This document shows positions 7,087-64,000 of a DNA stretch of 64,000 bases, one piece after another. The DNA comes from Clostridia bacterium (GTDB lineage Bacteria > Bacillota > Clostridia > Oscillospirales > Acutalibacteraceae): NCBI GenBank assembly GCA_017513245.1, contig JAFXGK010000003.1, positions 1 to 64,000 of the forward strand. The letters run 5' to 3'. Below the pieces are notes generated by a model that searched no databases, was not told where the DNA came from, and saw only the letters and a list, made by a program, of their open reading frames with translations. The position numbers were made by a program, and so were the translations under genes. Positions within the stretch are counted from its first letter, which is position 1; the number at the start of each line of letters is the position of its first letter.

Positions 7087-8364
7087 TTATTCATCCTCCG
7101 TGCGAATAGTTGCGCTCTTGGCATGTGCCGTAAGGCCTTCCTTGGTGGCAAAGAAGCCAACGTCGGCGGCCACTTCCTTCAGCGCTTCGCGAGTGTAATA
7201 TGTGTACTGAGTTTTCTTTATAAAATCGTCGACCGATAAGGGGCTCGAGAACTTTGCCGTGCCGCTGGTGGGCAGGGTGTGATTGGGTCCTGCAAAATAG
7301 TCGCCCAAAGCCTCGGGGCAGTTATAGCCCATAAATATCGAGCCTGCGTGACGAATCTTATCGAGGTAGTCAAACGGGTTTTCAACACAAAGTTCGAGGT
7401 GCTCAGGGGCGATTTCATTAGAAATTTCAATTGCCTCAAGCAGATTATCGGCCACTATTATCTTGCCGTTTTTATCAATCGATTCGCGCGCGATATCGGC
7501 GCGAAGCAGAAGAGGTATCTGGCGCTCGAGTTCTTCGCTTACTGCCTTGGCAAGGGCCTCAGAATCGGTAACCAGCACAGCGCTTGCCATACGGTCGTGC
7601 TCGGCCTGCGACAAAAGGTCTGCCGCCGCAAAACGGGGGTCGGTGGCACCGTCGGCCACTATCAGTATCTCGCTGGGTCCTGCAATCATATCAATGGATA
7701 CCTTGCCGTATACCTGGCGCTTGGCCTCGGCCACGAAGGCGTTTCCGGGGCCGACTATCTTATCAACCGAGGGAATACTCTCGGTGCCGTATGCCAGTGC
7801 GGCAATAGCCTGAGCACCGCCAACCTTGAAAATTTTGTCAACGCCGGCAACCTTGGCGGCCGCTAAAATTACGGGGTTAACACTGCCGTCGGCCGACGGA
7901 GGAGTAACCATAACAACCTCAGGACAGCCTGCAATCTTGGCAGGAATGGAATCCATAAGCACGGTCGAGGGGTATGCCGCGGTACCGCCGGGCACGTAAA
8001 GTCCTGCGCGGTCAACGGGGGTTATCTTTTGACCCATTATTACACCGTTGTTCTTTTCAATGCGAAAACCTTCACGCACCTGATTTTGGTGGAAAGCGCG
8101 GATATTCTCGGCGGCCTTTTCGAGTATCTCCAAAAATTCGGGCTCAACCGATTTTACGGCGCGGTCAATCTCCTCTGCGGTTACAAGCAGGGAAGAAAGT
8201 TTGGCCTTATCGAATTTTTCGCAGTATTTATAAAGGGCGGCATCACCGTTTTTACGAACGTCGGCAATAATTTCTGCAACGATGTCGGTAACGTTTACAG
8301 TCGGCTCGGTGCGGGCAAAAATCTCACTTTTTGAAACCTTGCCGTATTTCATAATCTTTATCAT
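7087..8364 (-). CDS. hisD: Histidinol dehydrogenase
   Basis: A 425-residue zinc-dependent NAD enzyme that oxidises histidinol to histidine in two steps. Signature stretches are GPGNAFVAEAKRQVYG, MIAGPSEILIVADG, DLLSQAEHD and the C-terminal GPNHTLPTSGTAKFSSPLSV with catalytic residues. Its start overlaps the hisG stop. In this operon, hisD follows hisG as in many Firmicutes. Confidence 0.97.
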   Translation of the reverse strand: MIKIMKYGKVSKSEIFARTEPTVNVTDIVAEIIADVRKNGDAALYKYCEKFDKAKLSSLLVTAEEIDRAVKSVEPEFLEILEKAAENIRAFHQNQVREGFRIEKNNGVIMGQKITPVDRAGLYVPGGTAAYPSTVLMDSIPAKIAGCPEVVMVTPPSADGSVNPVILAAAKVAGVDKIFKVGGAQAIAALAYGTESIPSVDKIVGPGNAFVAEAKRQVYGKVSIDMIAGPSEILIVADGATDPRFAAADLLSQAEHDRMASAVLVTDSEALAKAVSEELERQIPLLLRADIARESIDKNGKIIVADNLLEAIEISNEIAPEHLELCVENPFDYLDKIRHAGSIFMGYNCPEALGDYFAGPNHTLPTSGTAKFSSPLSVDDFIKKTQYTYYTREALKEVAADVGFFATKEGLTAHAKSATIRTEDE

Positions 8365-8987
8365 CAGTTTTCCATACCTTTCATCAGTTCGCGACGGAGC
8401 GTTTCAATCTGCTCCGATTTAAATTTAAGGCTTGCTTTGTTCGATATCAGTCGAGCGCTGATGGGAACGATGCTCTCAACCACCTCAAGGTCGTTTTCCT
8501 TCAGCGTTGTGCCCGTTTCCACAATATCCACAATTACGTCCGACAGACCCAAAATAGGAGCAATTTCAATCGACCCGTTAAGGTGGATAATGTCGATATC
8601 ACGTCCTTTTGAAAGGTAATATTCAGCGGCAATATTCGAAAACTTGGTGGCAACGCGCAAGGGGCGGCGAATGTCATCGCGAAAGCCTTTTTTTGCGGCT
8701 ACCGCCATACGGCATTTGCCGATATCAAGGTCTAAAAGCTCATATACGTCGGGGGTGTATTCAAGCAGAATATCCTTGCCCGCAACGCCGATATCGGCAG
8801 CGCCGCGCTCGACGTAAATTGCAACGTCAGAGGGCTTAACCCAGAAGTATCTTACTCCTGCGGTTTCGTTTTCAAATATAAGTTTTCGGTTATTCTCTTT
8901 TATGGAAGGGCAGGGAAAGCCCGCCTTTTCAAACATGGCGTAAACCTTTTCGCCCAGTCTGCCCTTCGGCAGAGCAACGTTAAGCAT
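8364..8987 (-). CDS. hisG: ATP phosphoribosyltransferase, short-form catalytic subunit
   Basis: A 207-residue short-form HisG, which starts histidine synthesis by joining ATP to PRPP. It has the N-terminal ALPKGRLGEK loop and the PRPP-binding VDIVETGTTLKEN motif, and lacks the C-terminal ACT-like domain of long HisG, so it needs HisZ for activity and feedback by histidine. HisZ is encoded immediately upstream. Confidence 0.97.
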   Translation of the reverse strand: MLNVALPKGRLGEKVYAMFEKAGFPCPSIKENNRKLIFENETAGVRYFWVKPSDVAIYVERGAADIGVAGKDILLEYTPDVYELLDLDIGKCRMAVAAKKGFRDDIRRPLRVATKFSNIAAEYYLSKGRDIDIIHLNGSIEIAPILGLSDVIVDIVETGTTLKENDLEVVESIVPISARLISNKASLKFKSEQIETLRRELMKGMEN

Positions 8988-8988
8988 T

Positions 8989-10101
8989 TTAATTTAACTC
9001 CTTTAGGATGTTTTCTTCGAGTAAAAATACGCGACGGAATTTGGCGTTTTCGGGCATGCTGTTTTGCACGCGAACGCTTTCGTACTTTGCCTTTAGGTCA
9101 TTTACGGCTTCGCGAATGGCCGAAAGCGAGCAGTCTTTATAAAGTAAGAGTGCGTCGGCATCGAATTCGCTTTGTTCGTCGTAAAGGCGGTCGAGCGTGT
9201 CGTGATATACTGCAAATCCAACGGCATCAAAGTTTCTGCCGAGTCGCTTCATAAGGCGGTTGTACTGTCCGCCCGAAAGCACTGCGGTCGGCACGCCGTT
9301 TACAAAGCCCTTAAATACGATTCCGTTGTAGTATTTCATATTATCTACAACCGAGAAATCAATGTTAACCATTTTTCGAATGTTTTCGTTAAGGCCGTCG
9401 ATTATCTCGCATAAAAGTTCAAGCGGCTTTAAATCGGCAATGCCGTAGAGAAGCTCTCTGATTTTGGGGATTACAGTGTCGGCTGAGCCGTATGTGGAAA
9501 CGGCTTCGATTATTCTGTTTGCCTTGTCCTCGGCCACGCCGGCGCCCGATAAAAGTGCGCGCAGCTCGTGGGTATTCTTTTCCCCCGTAAGACGCAAAAA
9601 TTCTTTTCTTTCCTGCTCGCCGAGGGCGAGGGAATCGAGAATTTCGGAAATCAGGTCAAGATTAGATAAATCAAGCACCGAGTCGGAAGATACAAGTCTT
9701 AAACTTTCGGCGGCAAGCGTAACAACCTCGCACAGGCTATAGCTGTCAATGTTTCCAAAGCATTCGAGGCCGGTCTGCATAATTTCCTTGAACGAGCGGT
9801 TTCCGCCCGCTACGCGGTAGACGTTTTCGTTATAATACAGCTTGGCGCAGTAATTATCCGAATCGCTCAGGTTTTTTATTATCGAAAGGGTGACGTCGGG
9901 CTTGAGCGCAAGCAGTCGGCCATCCATATCGGTAAAGGTTATAACACTGTCGGAAATGAGAAAGTCCTTGTTGCGAGCGTAAAGGTCGTATTCCTCAAAC
10001 TTGCTCATGCGATAGTGGCTGTAGCCGTTTTGTTCGTAAAGCGCACGAAGCGAAAATATAAGTCGCTCGTCAAATCCGAGCGAAAGATTTGAAATTTCCA
10101 T
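8989..10101 (-). CDS. hisZ: ATP phosphoribosyltransferase regulatory subunit
   Basis: A 370-residue paralog of the histidyl-tRNA synthetase catalytic core that assembles with short HisG and carries the histidine feedback site. Class II motif 2-like DVTLSI and the later YYNGIVFKGF and GGQYNRLMKRLG stretches resemble HisRS, but there is no anticodon-binding domain. Its ATG overlaps the TAA of the yerC-like gene. Genuine HisRS is excluded by context and by the missing C-terminal domain. Confidence 0.93.
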   Translation of the reverse strand: MEISNLSLGFDERLIFSLRALYEQNGYSHYRMSKFEEYDLYARNKDFLISDSVITFTDMDGRLLALKPDVTLSIIKNLSDSDNYCAKLYYNENVYRVAGGNRSFKEIMQTGLECFGNIDSYSLCEVVTLAAESLRLVSSDSVLDLSNLDLISEILDSLALGEQERKEFLRLTGEKNTHELRALLSGAGVAEDKANRIIEAVSTYGSADTVIPKIRELLYGIADLKPLELLCEIIDGLNENIRKMVNIDFSVVDNMKYYNGIVFKGFVNGVPTAVLSGGQYNRLMKRLGRNFDAVGFAVYHDTLDRLYDEQSEFDADALLLYKDCSLSAIREAVNDLKAKYESVRVQNSMPENAKFRRVFLLEENILKELN

Positions 10102-10394
10102 TATTTTTCCTCCGCCTTCAGTCGCATTATGGCTTCCTTATAGCCGCCGCTGCCGTAGTTTAGGCACTTGCTTACGCGGCCTATGGTAGCGGTGCTTACG
10201 TTAACGTTTTCGGTTATTTTTTGGTAGCTCATACCATCATAAAGCAAAAATGCAGTATCCAAACGCTGCGTCATATCGGACAGCTCCTTTATGGTGCAAA
10301 CGTCCTCAAAAAAATCGTAGCATTCCTCTACGGACTTTAAATTAAGTATTGCGCGGAACAAGCGATCGGTGGACGGATTTTGCAGTTTTTTCAT
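10101..10394 (-). CDS. yerC: YerC/YecD family TrpR-like regulator
   Basis: A 97-residue all-helical protein of the TrpR superfamily. The helix-turn-helix is MSYQKITENVNVSTATIGRVSKCLNYG at about residues 54-80. It is the first gene of the his operon, a position that fits an autoregulator of histidine synthesis. An 18-bp inverted repeat lies over the operon promoter and is a natural operator candidate. Whether histidine is the corepressor cannot be read from the sequence. Confidence 0.85.
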   Translation of the reverse strand: MKKLQNPSTDRLFRAILNLKSVEECYDFFEDVCTIKELSDMTQRLDTAFLLYDGMSYQKITENVNVSTATIGRVSKCLNYGSGGYKEAIMRLKAEEK

Positions 10395-10425
10395 TAAAAT
10401 TACCTCACAAATTTATTGCTTTAAC

Positions 10426-10454
10426 ATAATATCACTTTATCACAGTAAAGTCAA
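10426..10454 (-). promoter_or_regulatory. his operon promoter
   Basis: On the minus strand, TTGACT (10454-10449) and TATTAT (10431-10426) are separated by 17 bp. It reads toward yerC-hisZ, leaving a leader of about 25 bases: too short for an attenuator or a T-box, so control must act on initiation. Confidence 0.8.
10434..10451. promoter_or_regulatory. Inverted repeat in the his promoter (candidate YerC operator)
   Basis: ACTTTA-TCACAG-TAAAGT: perfect 6-bp arms around a 6-bp centre. It covers the spacer and part of the -35 element, so a bound TrpR-like dimer would block RNA polymerase. The size is similar to the enterobacterial trp operator. Confidence 0.6.
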
Positions 10455-10515
10455 GCGAAAAAACAGATATTTTTTTGAAAAAATTATTATTTTTATTAAC
10501 ATTTTGTCGATTGAC

Positions 10516-10544
10516 TTGAACGGACAAAAATACTGTGCTATACT
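10516..10544 (+). promoter_or_regulatory. Promoter of the AI-2E family transporter gene
   Basis: TTGAAC (10516-10521), 17 bp, TATACT (10539-10544), with a TGC extended -10 just before the hexamer. It is back-to-back with the his promoter, about 60 bp away. Confidence 0.7.
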
Positions 10545-10575
10545 AAACCTATTAAAACCGAAAGGGGACTCGACA

Positions 10576-11739
10576 TTGGACAAGAAAACCAAGCAATATT
10601 TAATGCTTATAACCTATGCCATTGTTTTGTTCACGGCCATAATGAATATGGGCCACATATATGCGTTTGTAAAAAATCTCATAGGCTTGCTGTCACCCGT
10701 TGTGGTAGGCCTCGTGGTGGCGTTTATTTTAAACGTTCCCATGAGCGGCTTCGAAAAACTGATAGATAAGCTCGCCCACAAGATAAACAAAAACCGAATT
10801 CCGCCGCAATCGGCAATAACCTGCATCAGCTTTCTTCTCACCTTAGTAAGCGTTGCGCTTATTATCACGCTGGTAGTTACCATGCTGGTGCCCGAAATCG
10901 TATCCTCGGTTGAAAGCATCTATAAGCAGGTGCTTGAAAAATGGCCCGAGTGGTCGGAAGAGCTTAAAGGCTACGGTGTTGATACCGCGAAGGTTACAGC
11001 CTGGCTTGAATCCTTCGATATAGAAAACCTCGTTTCTACGGTATCCAGCAGTGCCGGCTCGCTCGTGTCTTCGATTGCCGCTTTTGCCGCAAAGGCATTT
11101 TCGGGTATCTCCAATTTCATCATCTCGCTGGTTATCGCCTGCTATGCACTGCTCAGTAAGCGCCAGCTTTCGAAGCAGACCAACAGCATAATGTCGGCCT
11201 ATATGAAAAAGTCGACCGTAGAGCGTATTCATGGTGTAGGCAAACTCGTGAACGATACCTATTCGAAATTCTTGTCGGGTCAGTGCCTTGAGGCCTGCAT
11301 TCTCGGCGTTATGGTTTTTGTAGTATTCACCATTTTGGGTATTCCGTATGCCTCGCTTACGGCAGTTTTGGCTGCGGTGTTTGCCTTCGTGCCGTATATC
11401 GGTTCCTTCTTTGCCTGCTTTATCGGCGCCTTCTTGGTGCTGCTGGCAGAGCCCGAAAAGGTTATTCTGTGCATCATCGTTTATGTTGTAGTTCAGTTTA
11501 TTGAAAACCAGTTCATTTATCCTCACGTTGTTGGAACCTCAGTTGGTCTCGGCGCATTCTGGACGCTCTTGGCAGTAGTTCTCGGCGGTCAGATTATGGG
11601 CGTGCTCGGAATGGTATTCTTCATTCCGCTCACCTCGGTTATCGTAACTCTGCTTCGCGGTCACATGGCTAAACGCCGCGCACTGAAGCAGGCCGAAGGT
11701 ATCGGCAGTGTCGAAACCGACCCGCCTAAAACCGAATAA
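10576..11739 (+). CDS. AI-2E family transporter (TerC/TqsA/YdiK-type permease)
   Basis: A 387-residue polytopic membrane protein of the AI-2E transporter family. There are about eight membrane segments: two near residues 10-55, one at about 78-105, a long soluble loop (about 106-165), then paired segments to residue 365, including LGIPYASLTAVLAAVFAFVPYIGSF and the conserved QFIENQFIYPHVVG. Start is a TTG at 10576, 8 bases after GGGG; the longer frame has no start signal. It stands alone between its promoter and a terminator. Substrates of the family include autoinducer-2 and, in some members, Na+/H+; which one applies here is unknown. Confidence 0.88.
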   Translation: MDKKTKQYLMLITYAIVLFTAIMNMGHIYAFVKNLIGLLSPVVVGLVVAFILNVPMSGFEKLIDKLAHKINKNRIPPQSAITCISFLLTLVSVALIITLVVTMLVPEIVSSVESIYKQVLEKWPEWSEELKGYGVDTAKVTAWLESFDIENLVSTVSSSAGSLVSSIAAFAAKAFSGISNFIISLVIACYALLSKRQLSKQTNSIMSAYMKKSTVERIHGVGKLVNDTYSKFLSGQCLEACILGVMVFVVFTILGIPYASLTAVLAAVFAFVPYIGSFFACFIGAFLVLLAEPEKVILCIIVYVVVQFIENQFIYPHVVGTSVGLGAFWTLLAVVLGGQIMGVLGMVFFIPLTSVIVTLLRGHMAKRRALKQAEGIGSVETDPPKTE

Positions 11740-11743
11740 AATC

Positions 11744-11774
11744 AAAAGCCCGAATGATAGTCATTCGGGCTTTT
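11744..11774. terminator. Bidirectional terminator
   Basis: Stem AAAAGCCCGAATGA paired around TAG, with flanking T/A runs. It separates the transporter from the convergent DUF4097 gene. Confidence 0.9.
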
Positions 11775-11776
11775 TG

Positions 11777-12706
11777 TTATTCTTTGGCAATACTTACTTC
11801 AATATCGCCTTTTTGCGTGCGAAGGTTTAGGTTGTGTTCGCCGCCGGGCTGCTTTTCGGGAAGGTTGCATGTGCCGCCTTCGGCATTGCAGTTATAGGAA
11901 AAATCTTCTGCCGAGCCTAAAATACTGCCACGGATATCACCTTTTTTGGTAATAAGGGTGATGCCGTATTTTGCGCTGAGTGCGCTCAGTCTTATATCGC
12001 CGCCGTTGACCTCGCCGAAGATGTCACCAAGCGATTTAACATCGGCCAGCGTCATATATCCGCTGCGAACTTCGGCATAAAGTTCCTTAGCGGTAACGAG
12101 CTGTGCGAGCACGTTGCCTTTGGTGGATGAAAGCTGGGCAGCGTTTTTAATATCGTTGTTGTAGAGCTCAATATTACCCTCTTCGGTAGTGGCAATTAAA
12201 ATACCGTTAATCTTACTGCCGATAACTCTGACGTCGCCGTTTTTAGAAACGGCAGAAATGCCGTCGGCCGTAATCGAGTCAAACTCGATATCGCCGTTTT
12301 CACACTCAACCTTTACGGCGCCCTTAAAGTTTTTGGGTAGCATAACCGTAATGACGGGGGTGCTTCGCGAAAGACGAAGGGCCTCTGTCCAGTCGGCAGT
12401 GCTGTGCTGTTCAACGCTTAAAACGTCGTTATCCAGCATGGTAATATTGTAGGTGCGAATGCCGTTTTCGTAATATTTAATGTGCACCTTTTTGTCTTCC
12501 GATAGGGTGAATTTTATGTCGGCATCGCTATCCTTAATTACAATTCCCTCTAAATTTCCGCTTTCGGAATACTTAACGGGGGTGTAAACCGGCTCGGTGT
12601 CGAAGTTGGTGAAATCAAATCCGAGCATCGCAAAACCAACGAAGAAAACAATAACTCCCACCAAAAGGAAGGCAACCGCAGTGATGTATACCTTGCTCAG
12701 TTTCAT
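11777..12706 (-). CDS. DUF4097 domain membrane-anchored protein
   Basis: A 309-residue protein with one N-terminal membrane helix (about residues 8-28) and an outside domain of short repeated beta-strands (GNLEGIVIKD, GDIEFDSI, GDVRVIGS, GNIELYNN, GDIRLSAL, GDIRGSIL, GDIEVSIA) with the periodic GDI/GNV pattern of DUF4097, a beta-helix-like putative adhesin fold. It overlaps the preceding DUF1700-type gene by 4 bases. Such pairs usually accompany a PadR-type regulator in Firmicutes; none is seen here. Confidence 0.8.
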   Translation of the reverse strand: MKLSKVYITAVAFLLVGVIVFFVGFAMLGFDFTNFDTEPVYTPVKYSESGNLEGIVIKDSDADIKFTLSEDKKVHIKYYENGIRTYNITMLDNDVLSVEQHSTADWTEALRLSRSTPVITVMLPKNFKGAVKVECENGDIEFDSITADGISAVSKNGDVRVIGSKINGILIATTEEGNIELYNNDIKNAAQLSSTKGNVLAQLVTAKELYAEVRSGYMTLADVKSLGDIFGEVNGGDIRLSALSAKYGITLITKKGDIRGSILGSAEDFSYNCNAEGGTCNLPEKQPGGEHNLNLRTQKGDIEVSIAKE

Positions 12707-62660: not shown

Positions 62661-63056
62661 GTGAAAAAGCAACTTAAAATCACAACGCCGAAGCCAAAGC
62701 CTAAAAAAGAACGCCGCCATATTGATTGGGGGCGTTATCTGTTTATGGGTTTTTTGTGCGTAACAATGATGGCAGGCACCACGATGCAGGTATTCGCAGC
62801 ACCGACCATCTGGGAAAAAGCCACGGAGATTATGAAGGATGTATATAACCAAATCCTTTTGATTTCGACCATTGCCGCCGTTGTTACCGCGTCGGTCGCC
62901 TTGCTTATGATGAACTTCTCCAAAACGGATAAAACCGTAACGGAATCCCGTGCTTGGCTGAAAAGAATCATCATTACGTGGGCGATTCTCAACGGTCTCG
63001 GCTTCATCATGGCCTATATCACTCCCTTCTTCTCTGACGGTAAGTGGACCGGCTGA
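62661..63056 (+). CDS. VirB2/TrbC-like small conjugation membrane protein
   Basis: A 131-residue protein: basic N-terminus (KKQLKITTPKPKPKKERR), hydrophobic stretch followed by VFAAPTIW (signal cleavage near AQ/A-type AA), then two membrane helices (about 65-88 and 105-122) around MMNFSKTDKTVTESRAWLKR, and a GKWTG end. The shape is that of pilin-like TrbC/VirB2 subunits in Gram-positive conjugation systems. GTG start behind AAGGAGG. The gene ends 4 bases before the Tn7-like end. Confidence 0.72.
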   Translation: MKKQLKITTPKPKPKKERRHIDWGRYLFMGFLCVTMMAGTTMQVFAAPTIWEKATEIMKDVYNQILLISTIAAVVTASVALLMMNFSKTDKTVTESRAWLKRIIITWAILNGLGFIMAYITPFFSDGKWTG

Positions 63057-63059
63057 TAA

Positions 63060-63157
63060 TGTTAAATGACAATTAAGTGCTTTACTATTACAATTAAGTT
63101 TTATAATTACAAATAAGTTGTTTAAAAAGTGTTGAAAAATTACAATTATGTTGTATA
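63060..63157 (+). mobile_element. Tn7-like transposon end with four TnsB-site-like repeats
   Basis: TGTTAAA at 63060 begins the element. Four copies of a motif follow: 63067 (TGACAATTAAGTGC), 63088 (TTACAATTAAGTTT), 63107 (TTACAAATAAGTTG), 63140 (TTACAATTATGTTG). The consensus TTACAATTAAGTTG resembles the Tn7 TnsB-site core GACAATAAAGT. Close packing of four sites beside tnsA is the Tn7 right-end arrangement. Base composition drops to AT-rich from this point. Confidence 0.85.
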
Positions 63158-63178
63158 ATTATAAAGGGTGATGTTGTA

Positions 63179-63931
63179 ATGGCTAAACACTTGCGACAAT
63201 GGAATCATGCTAAATATGAACAATATTTAAGTATGGGCAGAGGTTTCGGTGAAGGTAAAAACTATACTCCATGGATTTTAGTACAGGATTTTTCTTCACA
63301 AGGAACAGTATCAAGAGTCTCGGGGTACAAAACTGGTCGAGTTCATCATTTTTTATCGAAAAACGAATTGAATTATTTCTATATTTTAGAATGGTCAGAT
63401 AAGGTTATTGATATTAGGGAGCAATTCCCTATGATTAATGTTGAATTAGCTATGGATATTGCCAAAAAAGCAGGTATCAAATATCCATGTGATAGAAAAA
63501 GCGGATTTCCGTATGTGCTTACTTGTGATTTTATGATAACTACCACAGACGGATTAAAAGCTCGTACAATAAAGAGTTCACAGGAATTAACCAATAAGCG
63601 AACATTAGAGAAATTGGAAATTGAAAGACGTTATTGGGAAACAATTGGTATAGATTGGGCTATAGTAACCGAAAATGAAATATCGGTGAAAAAAGCAAAA
63701 TTTATAGAGTGGATATATGATGCTAATCAGCTACCTGCTCATTTAAAAGAAGAAAGAATTATAAATTCTGTGATTGAAAATTGTGATAATACTTCAATAC
63801 ATAAAGTTGCTTTGGAAACGGACAAGCGGTTTGGTTTGGTAGCCGGAAGCGGAATGCGTATAATTAAATACCTTTTGCTCAATAAATTAGTCAATTATGA
63901 TTATGAAAATTATTGCATAGGAATCAATTAG
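63179..63931 (+). CDS. tnsA: TnsA-like transposon endonuclease
   Basis: A 250-residue restriction-endonuclease-fold protein that, in Tn7, cuts the 5' ends of the transposon. The catalytic triad is present at near-Tn7 positions: Glu64 in SKNELNYF, Asp117 in LTCDFMI and Lys132 in ARTIKSSQEL. VIDIREQFPM and YWETIGIDWAIVTE are further family marks, and a winged helix ends the protein. AT-rich coding sequence unlike the core genome. It starts 22 bases after the last TnsB-like repeat. Confidence 0.94.
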   Translation: MAKHLRQWNHAKYEQYLSMGRGFGEGKNYTPWILVQDFSSQGTVSRVSGYKTGRVHHFLSKNELNYFYILEWSDKVIDIREQFPMINVELAMDIAKKAGIKYPCDRKSGFPYVLTCDFMITTTDGLKARTIKSSQELTNKRTLEKLEIERRYWETIGIDWAIVTENEISVKKAKFIEWIYDANQLPAHLKEERIINSVIENCDNTSIHKVALETDKRFGLVAGSGMRIIKYLLLNKLVNYDYENYCIGIN

Positions 63932-63942
63932 GAGAAATCGAA

Positions 63943-64000
63943 ATGTTTAATTGTAATGATGTATTTGAAGACTTGTATGAGCATAAAAAATTCCGCATTC
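63943..64000 (+). CDS. Start of the next transposon gene, probably tnsB (truncated by the window)
   Basis: An ATG at 63943 follows GGAGAAAT and stays open to the window edge (19 codons, beginning Met-Phe-Asn-Cys-Asn-Asp-Val). In Tn7-like elements tnsB, the DDE transposase, follows tnsA directly. The visible part is too short to name the product from sequence. Confidence 0.6.
   Translation, partial: MFNCNDVFEDLYEHKKFRI

Follow-up and report, generated by a model that had tools for sequence, protein, structure and literature searches.

A Tn7-group transposon whose probable attachment site lies behind a transfer gene of conjugative elements

The right-hand end of the window (the whole stretch of 64,000 nucleotides analysed here, which corresponds to bases 1-64000 of a contig of 107,825 bases and shares its numbering) runs into a Tn7-like transposon that is complete on the contig, with a length of 6578 bp. 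It lies directly behind a gene of an ICE-like conjugative element, and the same place is occupied in a second conjugative element and, counting a solo transposon end, in a third. We regard it as probable that this TnsABC+D element homes, by means of TnsD, to the 3' end of a VirB2-like gene carried on conjugative elements.

Structure and gene content of the transposon

The original prediction described a TGT terminus and four repeats resembling TnsB-binding sites at position 63060, and both were recovered: the left terminus, TGTTAAATG, starts with TGT immediately after the pentanucleotide GATAA, and sites of the TTACAATTAAGT type begin at 63067, 63088, 63107 and 63140, all within the first 92 bp. 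A matching end and a second copy of GATAA had been expected within about 100 kb and are present 6.6 kb away (Table 1). The element carries six TTACAATTAAGT-like sites with at most one mismatch, of which four belong to the tnsA end and two to the far end, all pointing inward. In 2000 dinucleotide shuffles of both ends such sites averaged 0.0125 and never exceeded 1, against the 6 observed, and none was found at equal stringency on either strand of the remaining 101,247 bp of the contig, which together rule out a chance origin of the end repeats. The outer 30 bp of the left and right ends are identical at 24 positions.

Four genes in one direction, tnsA, tnsB, tnsC and tnsD, together account for 96% of the element; antisense ORFs of up to 181 aa within them are taken as mechanical. 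The tnsB, tnsC and tnsD genes follow tnsA as predicted, and the targeting module placed beyond position 64,000 proves to be TnsC plus TnsD. The best solved relatives of the four proteins are the four proteins of Tn7 itself, while NCBIfam gave nothing above cut-off for TnsA, TnsB, TnsC or TnsD. The presumed catalytic residues of TnsA are E63, D117 and K132, of which the last two had been correctly named and the first had been placed one position too far, at E64. TnsB has the motif residues D285/D373/E408, TnsC has Walker A and B motifs at aa 136 and 233, and TnsD carries a CxxC...CxxH motif, positions which we take to be catalytic or zinc residues from alignments with the solved relatives and by comparison with Tn7.

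The tnsD gene is the sole selector gene of the element and the sole TniQ-family match in the source assembly (1.72 Mb in 51 contigs, 91.5% complete). Neither cargo nor Cas genes were found within the element, and the suggestion of defence or other cargo does not hold for it. The element has these features of the Tn7 group: TnsA and a DDE-type TnsB with catalytic residues, an AAA+ TnsC, a selector of the TniQ/TnsD family, TGT...ACA ends, arrays of TnsB sites and a 5-bp duplication. Judged from its sequence, the element is complete and would probably be able to move by cut-and-paste, as a TnsABC+D transposon of this group that carries no cargo.

Tn7-like elements include CRISPR-associated systems, and the original prediction had offered either a CRISPR-associated or a new-target transposon. 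The second half of this alternative is supported by the site data given below. The first is refuted for the parts inside the element, in which the span of tnsA to tnsD leaves no room for Cas genes; TnsD, moreover, is long and has the full TnsD domain, unlike a short TniQ, and the probability that this is a CRISPR-associated transposon appears negligible.

The best promoter match of the region, a sigma-70-like sequence at 63132-63159 (11 of 12 positions, by consensus match only), overlaps the innermost TnsB-type site before tnsA, so that TnsB could regulate the operon from which it is expressed. Downstream of tnsD lies a terminator-like hairpin. Promoter-like matches number 35 compared with 30.2 in shuffled sequence, and terminator-like matches 5 compared with 4.6; because these counts are close to the shuffled level, both readings are offered as suggestions.

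Table 1. Coordinates of the transposon, its target gene and neighbouring features (window and contig positions are the same; positions above 64,000 lie beyond the window)
Feature	Position	Strand	Remarks
Target gene, 131 aa, VirB2/pilin-like (inferred name)	62661..63056	+	Proposed to be recognised by TnsD at its 3' end
Proposed TnsD-binding stretch, 36 bp	62999..63034	+	25 bp from insertion point; placed by analogy with attTn7
Target-site duplication, left copy (GATAA)	63055..63059	.	Overlaps TGA stop of target gene
Tn7-like element, complete	63060-69637 (63060..64000 in window)	+	6578 bp
tnsA-proximal end	63060..63178	.	TGT terminus, four TnsB-type sites, sigma-70-like promoter match
tnsA, endonuclease	63179..63931	+	Pfam TnsA N and C domains; Tn7 TnsA 1f1z, E 6e-41
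tnsB, DDE transposase	63943-66060 (63943..64000 in window)	+	PF09299 (Mu transposase C domain); Tn7 TnsB 7pik, E 1.9e-125
tnsC	66053-67612	+	AAA_22/TniB; Tn7 TnsC 8glu, E 2.3e-102
tnsD	67602-69515	+	PF06527 and PF15978 (TniQ and TnsD domains), E 7e-66; Tn7 TnsD 8glu_X, E 4e-20 over aa 8-165
Terminator-like hairpin	69514-69540		After tnsD; consensus match only
Far end	69516-69637		Inverted TnsB-type sites at 69585 and 69619, ACA terminus
Target-site duplication, right copy (GATAA)	69638-69642		Beyond window
VirB6/TrbL-like gene	69673-70383		Right of element; sub-threshold hit, E 0.0038

The target gene and its conjugative surroundings

The element is inserted behind the gene for a 131-aa protein, 3 bp past its stop codon and directly before a VirB6-like gene. 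The start of the 131-aa gene was set at a GTG at 62661, the open frame extending back to 62544. The N terminus of its product is signal-like and ends in VFA, and two hydrophobic stretches flank a WLKR motif conserved in an alignment of 14 sequences. In Pfam, TrbC/VirB2 matches were obtained in distant homologues, all below threshold (best E 0.0024). A position before VirB6 and this topology are those of VirB2-type pilins, and on both grounds the gene is probably VirB2-like.

To the right of the VirB6-like gene, after two ORFs, comes a VirB4-type ATPase, for which the Pfam TraG P-loop match exceeded its cut-off and the matches to NCBIfam VirB4 models stayed below theirs. A VirD4-type coupling protein is also encoded on this side, with an actin-like protein and a tyrosine recombinase near the contig end. 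The surrounding DNA is an ICE-like conjugative element, named as such from this gene content. The original prediction of a Tn7-like element with TnsA, nested in another mobile element, is thus upheld, with TnsB now added to TnsA. Removal of the transposon and of one copy of the duplication leaves 33 bp between the stop codon of the target gene and the VirB6-like gene, within the range of the empty copies described below.

The conjugative element also encodes, at contig 82273-86958 (L003 2273-6958), a protein of 1561 aa with repeated segments and a terminal membrane anchor, which appears by eye to be similar to surface adhesins.

Recurrence of the insertion site and its proposed recognition

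Matches to the 131-aa protein were found in 14 of 291 genomes of the class, at 16 places, the window's own included. Among 28 copies of the gene that were compared (again including that of the window), a transposon end follows the gene in three, namely in the window, in L019 and in G470. The site is empty in 20 of the 28, with VirB6 following within 18-90 bp; four have other inserts of 613-937 bp in the gap, and one was not assigned to any state. A query made of the two joined flanks, run against 300 genomes of the family, matched across the junction in nine places of eight other genomes; the remainder of the 12 matching genomes comprised the window's own, one with one flank only and two with stray matches of 30-32 bp.

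TnsB patterns, scanned against 84,980 species genomes, matched 23 stretches, five of which encode relatives. Four of these, L015-L018, are about 48% identical and are described below. The fifth, L019, is a contig of 3204 bp from an Oscillospiraceae MAG (SIG590), with a coverage of 2.8. It contains the first 1035 bp of the element, of which 1033 are identical (99.8%), inserted behind a homologue of the 131-aa gene, again 3 bp beyond the stop codon and in the orientation seen in the window. The adjoining homologue is only 75% identical over the 236 bp aligned by blastn, and the terminus is next to AAGGT, in place of GATAA, with only the left duplication copy in view. Because identity falls from 99.8% to 75% exactly at the terminus, the sequence suggests a separate insertion in another conjugative element. 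At an A-rich run inside tnsB, after element base 1035, the contig breaks off from the transposon and goes on into unrelated genes (the region at L019 1810-2254), through either a real deletion or assembly chimerism, and no further parts of the element were found in the L019 assembly.

In G470 (L036), TGTTGAATGACAATTAAGT follows the stop codon of a homologous gene at a distance of 4 bp and agrees with the element end at 18 of 19 bases. Beyond this solo end of about 19 bp the sequence diverges and leads into a gene for a 461-aa ATPase (AAA_14/DUF4143), with no recognisable far end in G470. We read the solo end as a probable remnant of a relative of the element. The solo end and the ATPase gene lie together between the VirB2-like gene and the VirB6-like gene (L036 4974-6548, G470:C15), possibly as a decayed relative that bore cargo.

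The identity of site and orientation in all three cases could also reflect a single old insertion, inherited with the conjugative element without any repetition. This has a very small probability, given that the transposon is 99.8% identical where the flanking gene is 75% identical, that the break falls exactly at the terminus and the flanking bases differ, and that the site is empty in 20 of the 28 gene copies.

In other conjugative elements the gap between the VirB2-like gene and the VirB6-like gene is occupied by accessory genes of small size, for which it is a hotspot. At L038 3942-4717, L040 2642-3572, L037 about 2290-2900 and L057 844-1499 it holds a nucleotidyltransferase/HepT pair, a HicA/HicB pair, a lipoprotein-like (by eye) small ORF and an ORF without a Pfam match. 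The presence of other inserts in four of 28 gene copies would be expected if the transposon had little sequence preference and only insertions in this gap survived. If only the 33-bp gap were tolerated, in two orientations, then by our own arithmetic an equal offset and orientation would arise by chance in about 1 in 66 cases for the second insertion and, within one base, in about 3 in 66 for the third; Tn7 TnsD, moreover, serves one fixed site (PMC2918618). Tolerance alone is insufficient because base and orientation coincide, making a merely tolerated hotspot decidedly unlikely. The insertion site was probably chosen and not accidental, as indicated by two copies and one solo end in the same place behind homologous genes, although the cases are few: a single complete copy, one that is cut short on a contig of low coverage, and a remnant.

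As only two or three insertions are known, the site on conjugative elements could instead be a second or degenerate target of a TnsD that serves a chromosomal site as well, or chiefly; Tn7-like elements are described as habitually having their home in the chromosome (PMC11406308). The 18-base end pattern, sought regardless of place, was however found in only two of 391 genomes of the class and one of 394 of the order (overlapping samples, both of which contain the window's genome). These are the window's genome and G470, both of which carry it at the VirB2-like site, and a control pattern gave zero among the matches listed. With the pattern nowhere else in these genomes, and a single copy of the element in its own assembly, a chromosomal site is rather unlikely. 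A match of the end pattern in a viral contig of 16,354 bases (L043) was taken as chance: its neighbouring ORFs look phage-like, and the part examined (ORFs overlapping 8000-11793 and bases 10900-11793) holds no tns gene and no second end site.

Recognition of the conserved 3' coding end of the VirB2-like gene by TnsD is the simplest mechanism, because the assembly has no TniQ-family match other than tnsD, which is also the element's one selector gene. Within the proposed recognition stretch, the window and L019 agree at 29 of 36 bases, six of the seven differences falling at codon position 3, in contrast to only 22 of 36 between the window and G470. Either TnsD is tolerant, or the relative in G470 had its own TnsD, or the stretch is misplaced.

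By the mechanism proposed here, TnsB would bind the six end sites, and TnsA and TnsB would excise the element. TnsD, as the only target selector, would bind the conserved 3' coding end of the VirB2-like gene and recruit TnsC. The element would then enter 3-4 bp past the stop codon, led by its tnsA-proximal end, and a 5-bp duplication would arise while the transfer gene stays whole. The transposon would travel with the conjugative element to new cells and move from there to the equivalent site of other conjugative elements, which would be its regular home. Its movement may also be timed with conjugation, because the tns genes sit inside the transfer region in the same direction.

Comparison with known systems

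A chromosomal safe site combined with a second pathway to mobile DNA is described as near-universal in Tn7-like elements (PMC11406308), and cargo is present in 96% of 6,549 delineated elements (PMC8649781), a survey which, for elements without TnsE, left open genes of unknown identity that select plasmids. We lean slightly towards the view that in the present element a single TnsD was retargeted to a conjugation gene and the two-pathway life was given up, so that home and vehicle became one piece of DNA. If this is true, an element of tnsABCD only, with a sequence-specific selector for a transfer gene, represents a one-pathway solution, in which the transposon rides conjugative elements without breaking their transfer genes, and also provides a new TnsD-DNA pair from which sequence reading by TnsD can be worked out. 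Its home address seems to be on a vehicle that moves between bacteria and not in an ordinary chromosomal gene.

TnsD matched in nine of the 394 order genomes, the window's own included (best other match 32%, over the N-terminal part), and in 215 plasmid records, all under 60% (best place 28% over 93% of the query). TnsB matched four phage records at 26%, and neither protein revealed a relative in viral contigs. With the whole element, blastn gave 66 plasmid records with pieces of 60-80% identity, none covering 80%, and the element is absent from two other genomes of the genus.

The relatives L015-L018 (Clostridium sp. MAG, Thermotalea metallivorans, Clostridium sp. N3C and Lutispora thermophila) have the same gene order where their contigs show it, with identities of 48% for TnsB, about 50% for TnsC, about 43% for TnsA and only about 33% for TnsD (L015 has TnsA and TnsB only). 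They differ from the present element in having extra genes next to tnsA or tnsD. Upstream of tnsA, L016 and L017 encode three proteins, of 124 aa (HTH-like), 267 aa (metallopeptidase-like) and 289 aa, the last two partly present in L015, and L018 has an ATPase-like gene downstream of tnsD (all as judged by eye). None of the transfer genes searched for was found beside L015-L018, or beside the TniQ hits L006-L014, on the stretches examined, which are mostly short.

The Tn5053 family lacks TnsA and has a short TniQ and a resolvase. It resembles the present element in aiming a TniQ-family selector at mobile DNA, its targets being plasmid resolution sites, presumably reached via TniQ (PMC11406308 Table 1). 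The present element differs in its Tn7-type TnsA and TnsD and in its site, the 3' end of a protein gene; it leaves no room for a resolvase gene and does not have the combination of TniA/TniB/TniQ plus resolvase and res sites that characterises the Tn5053 family.

The sites used by the parE, tRNA, comM and yhiN types of element are chromosomal genes. These elements, with TnsD, TniQ or TnsF sites, resemble the present one in that a protein guides them to a fixed site beside or within a conserved gene (PMC11406308, PMC10293859), but the relevant parts of these two papers do not name a conjugation gene as a site. A literature search, whose scope excluded most subscription papers and supplements and which is no proof of novelty, also found no Tn7-like element with a conjugation gene as its TnsD site. 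The attachment site at a conjugation gene looks like a new kind for an element of the Tn7 group.

The closest parallel is Tn7 of Escherichia coli, in which the tnsA-proximal end faces the target gene, as it does in this element. Both have TGT/ACA ends, several TnsB sites per end, a 5-bp duplication and insertion behind the 3' end of a conserved gene. They differ in that Tn7 uses the chromosomal glmS and inserts about 20 bp after its stop codon, whereas the site here is 3-4 bp after a VirB2-like gene on a conjugative element and not the attTn7 behind glmS that defines Tn7 sensu stricto; furthermore, the 6578 bp of this element include neither cargo nor the TnsE gene that Tn7 sensu stricto has along with a second target pathway, and have no room for them beside tnsA-D. 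The TnsD of Tn7 binds the final 36 bp of glmS, insertion follows in a single orientation some 20 bp past the stop codon, and DNA differences between organisms at the 3' end of glmS are mostly at wobble positions (PMC2918618), as are those between the window and L019 in the stretch proposed to be recognised. The present element is most likely a Tn7-type transposon whose attachment site lies on its vehicle, with a TnsD that reads a transfer gene as the TnsD of Tn7 reads glmS.
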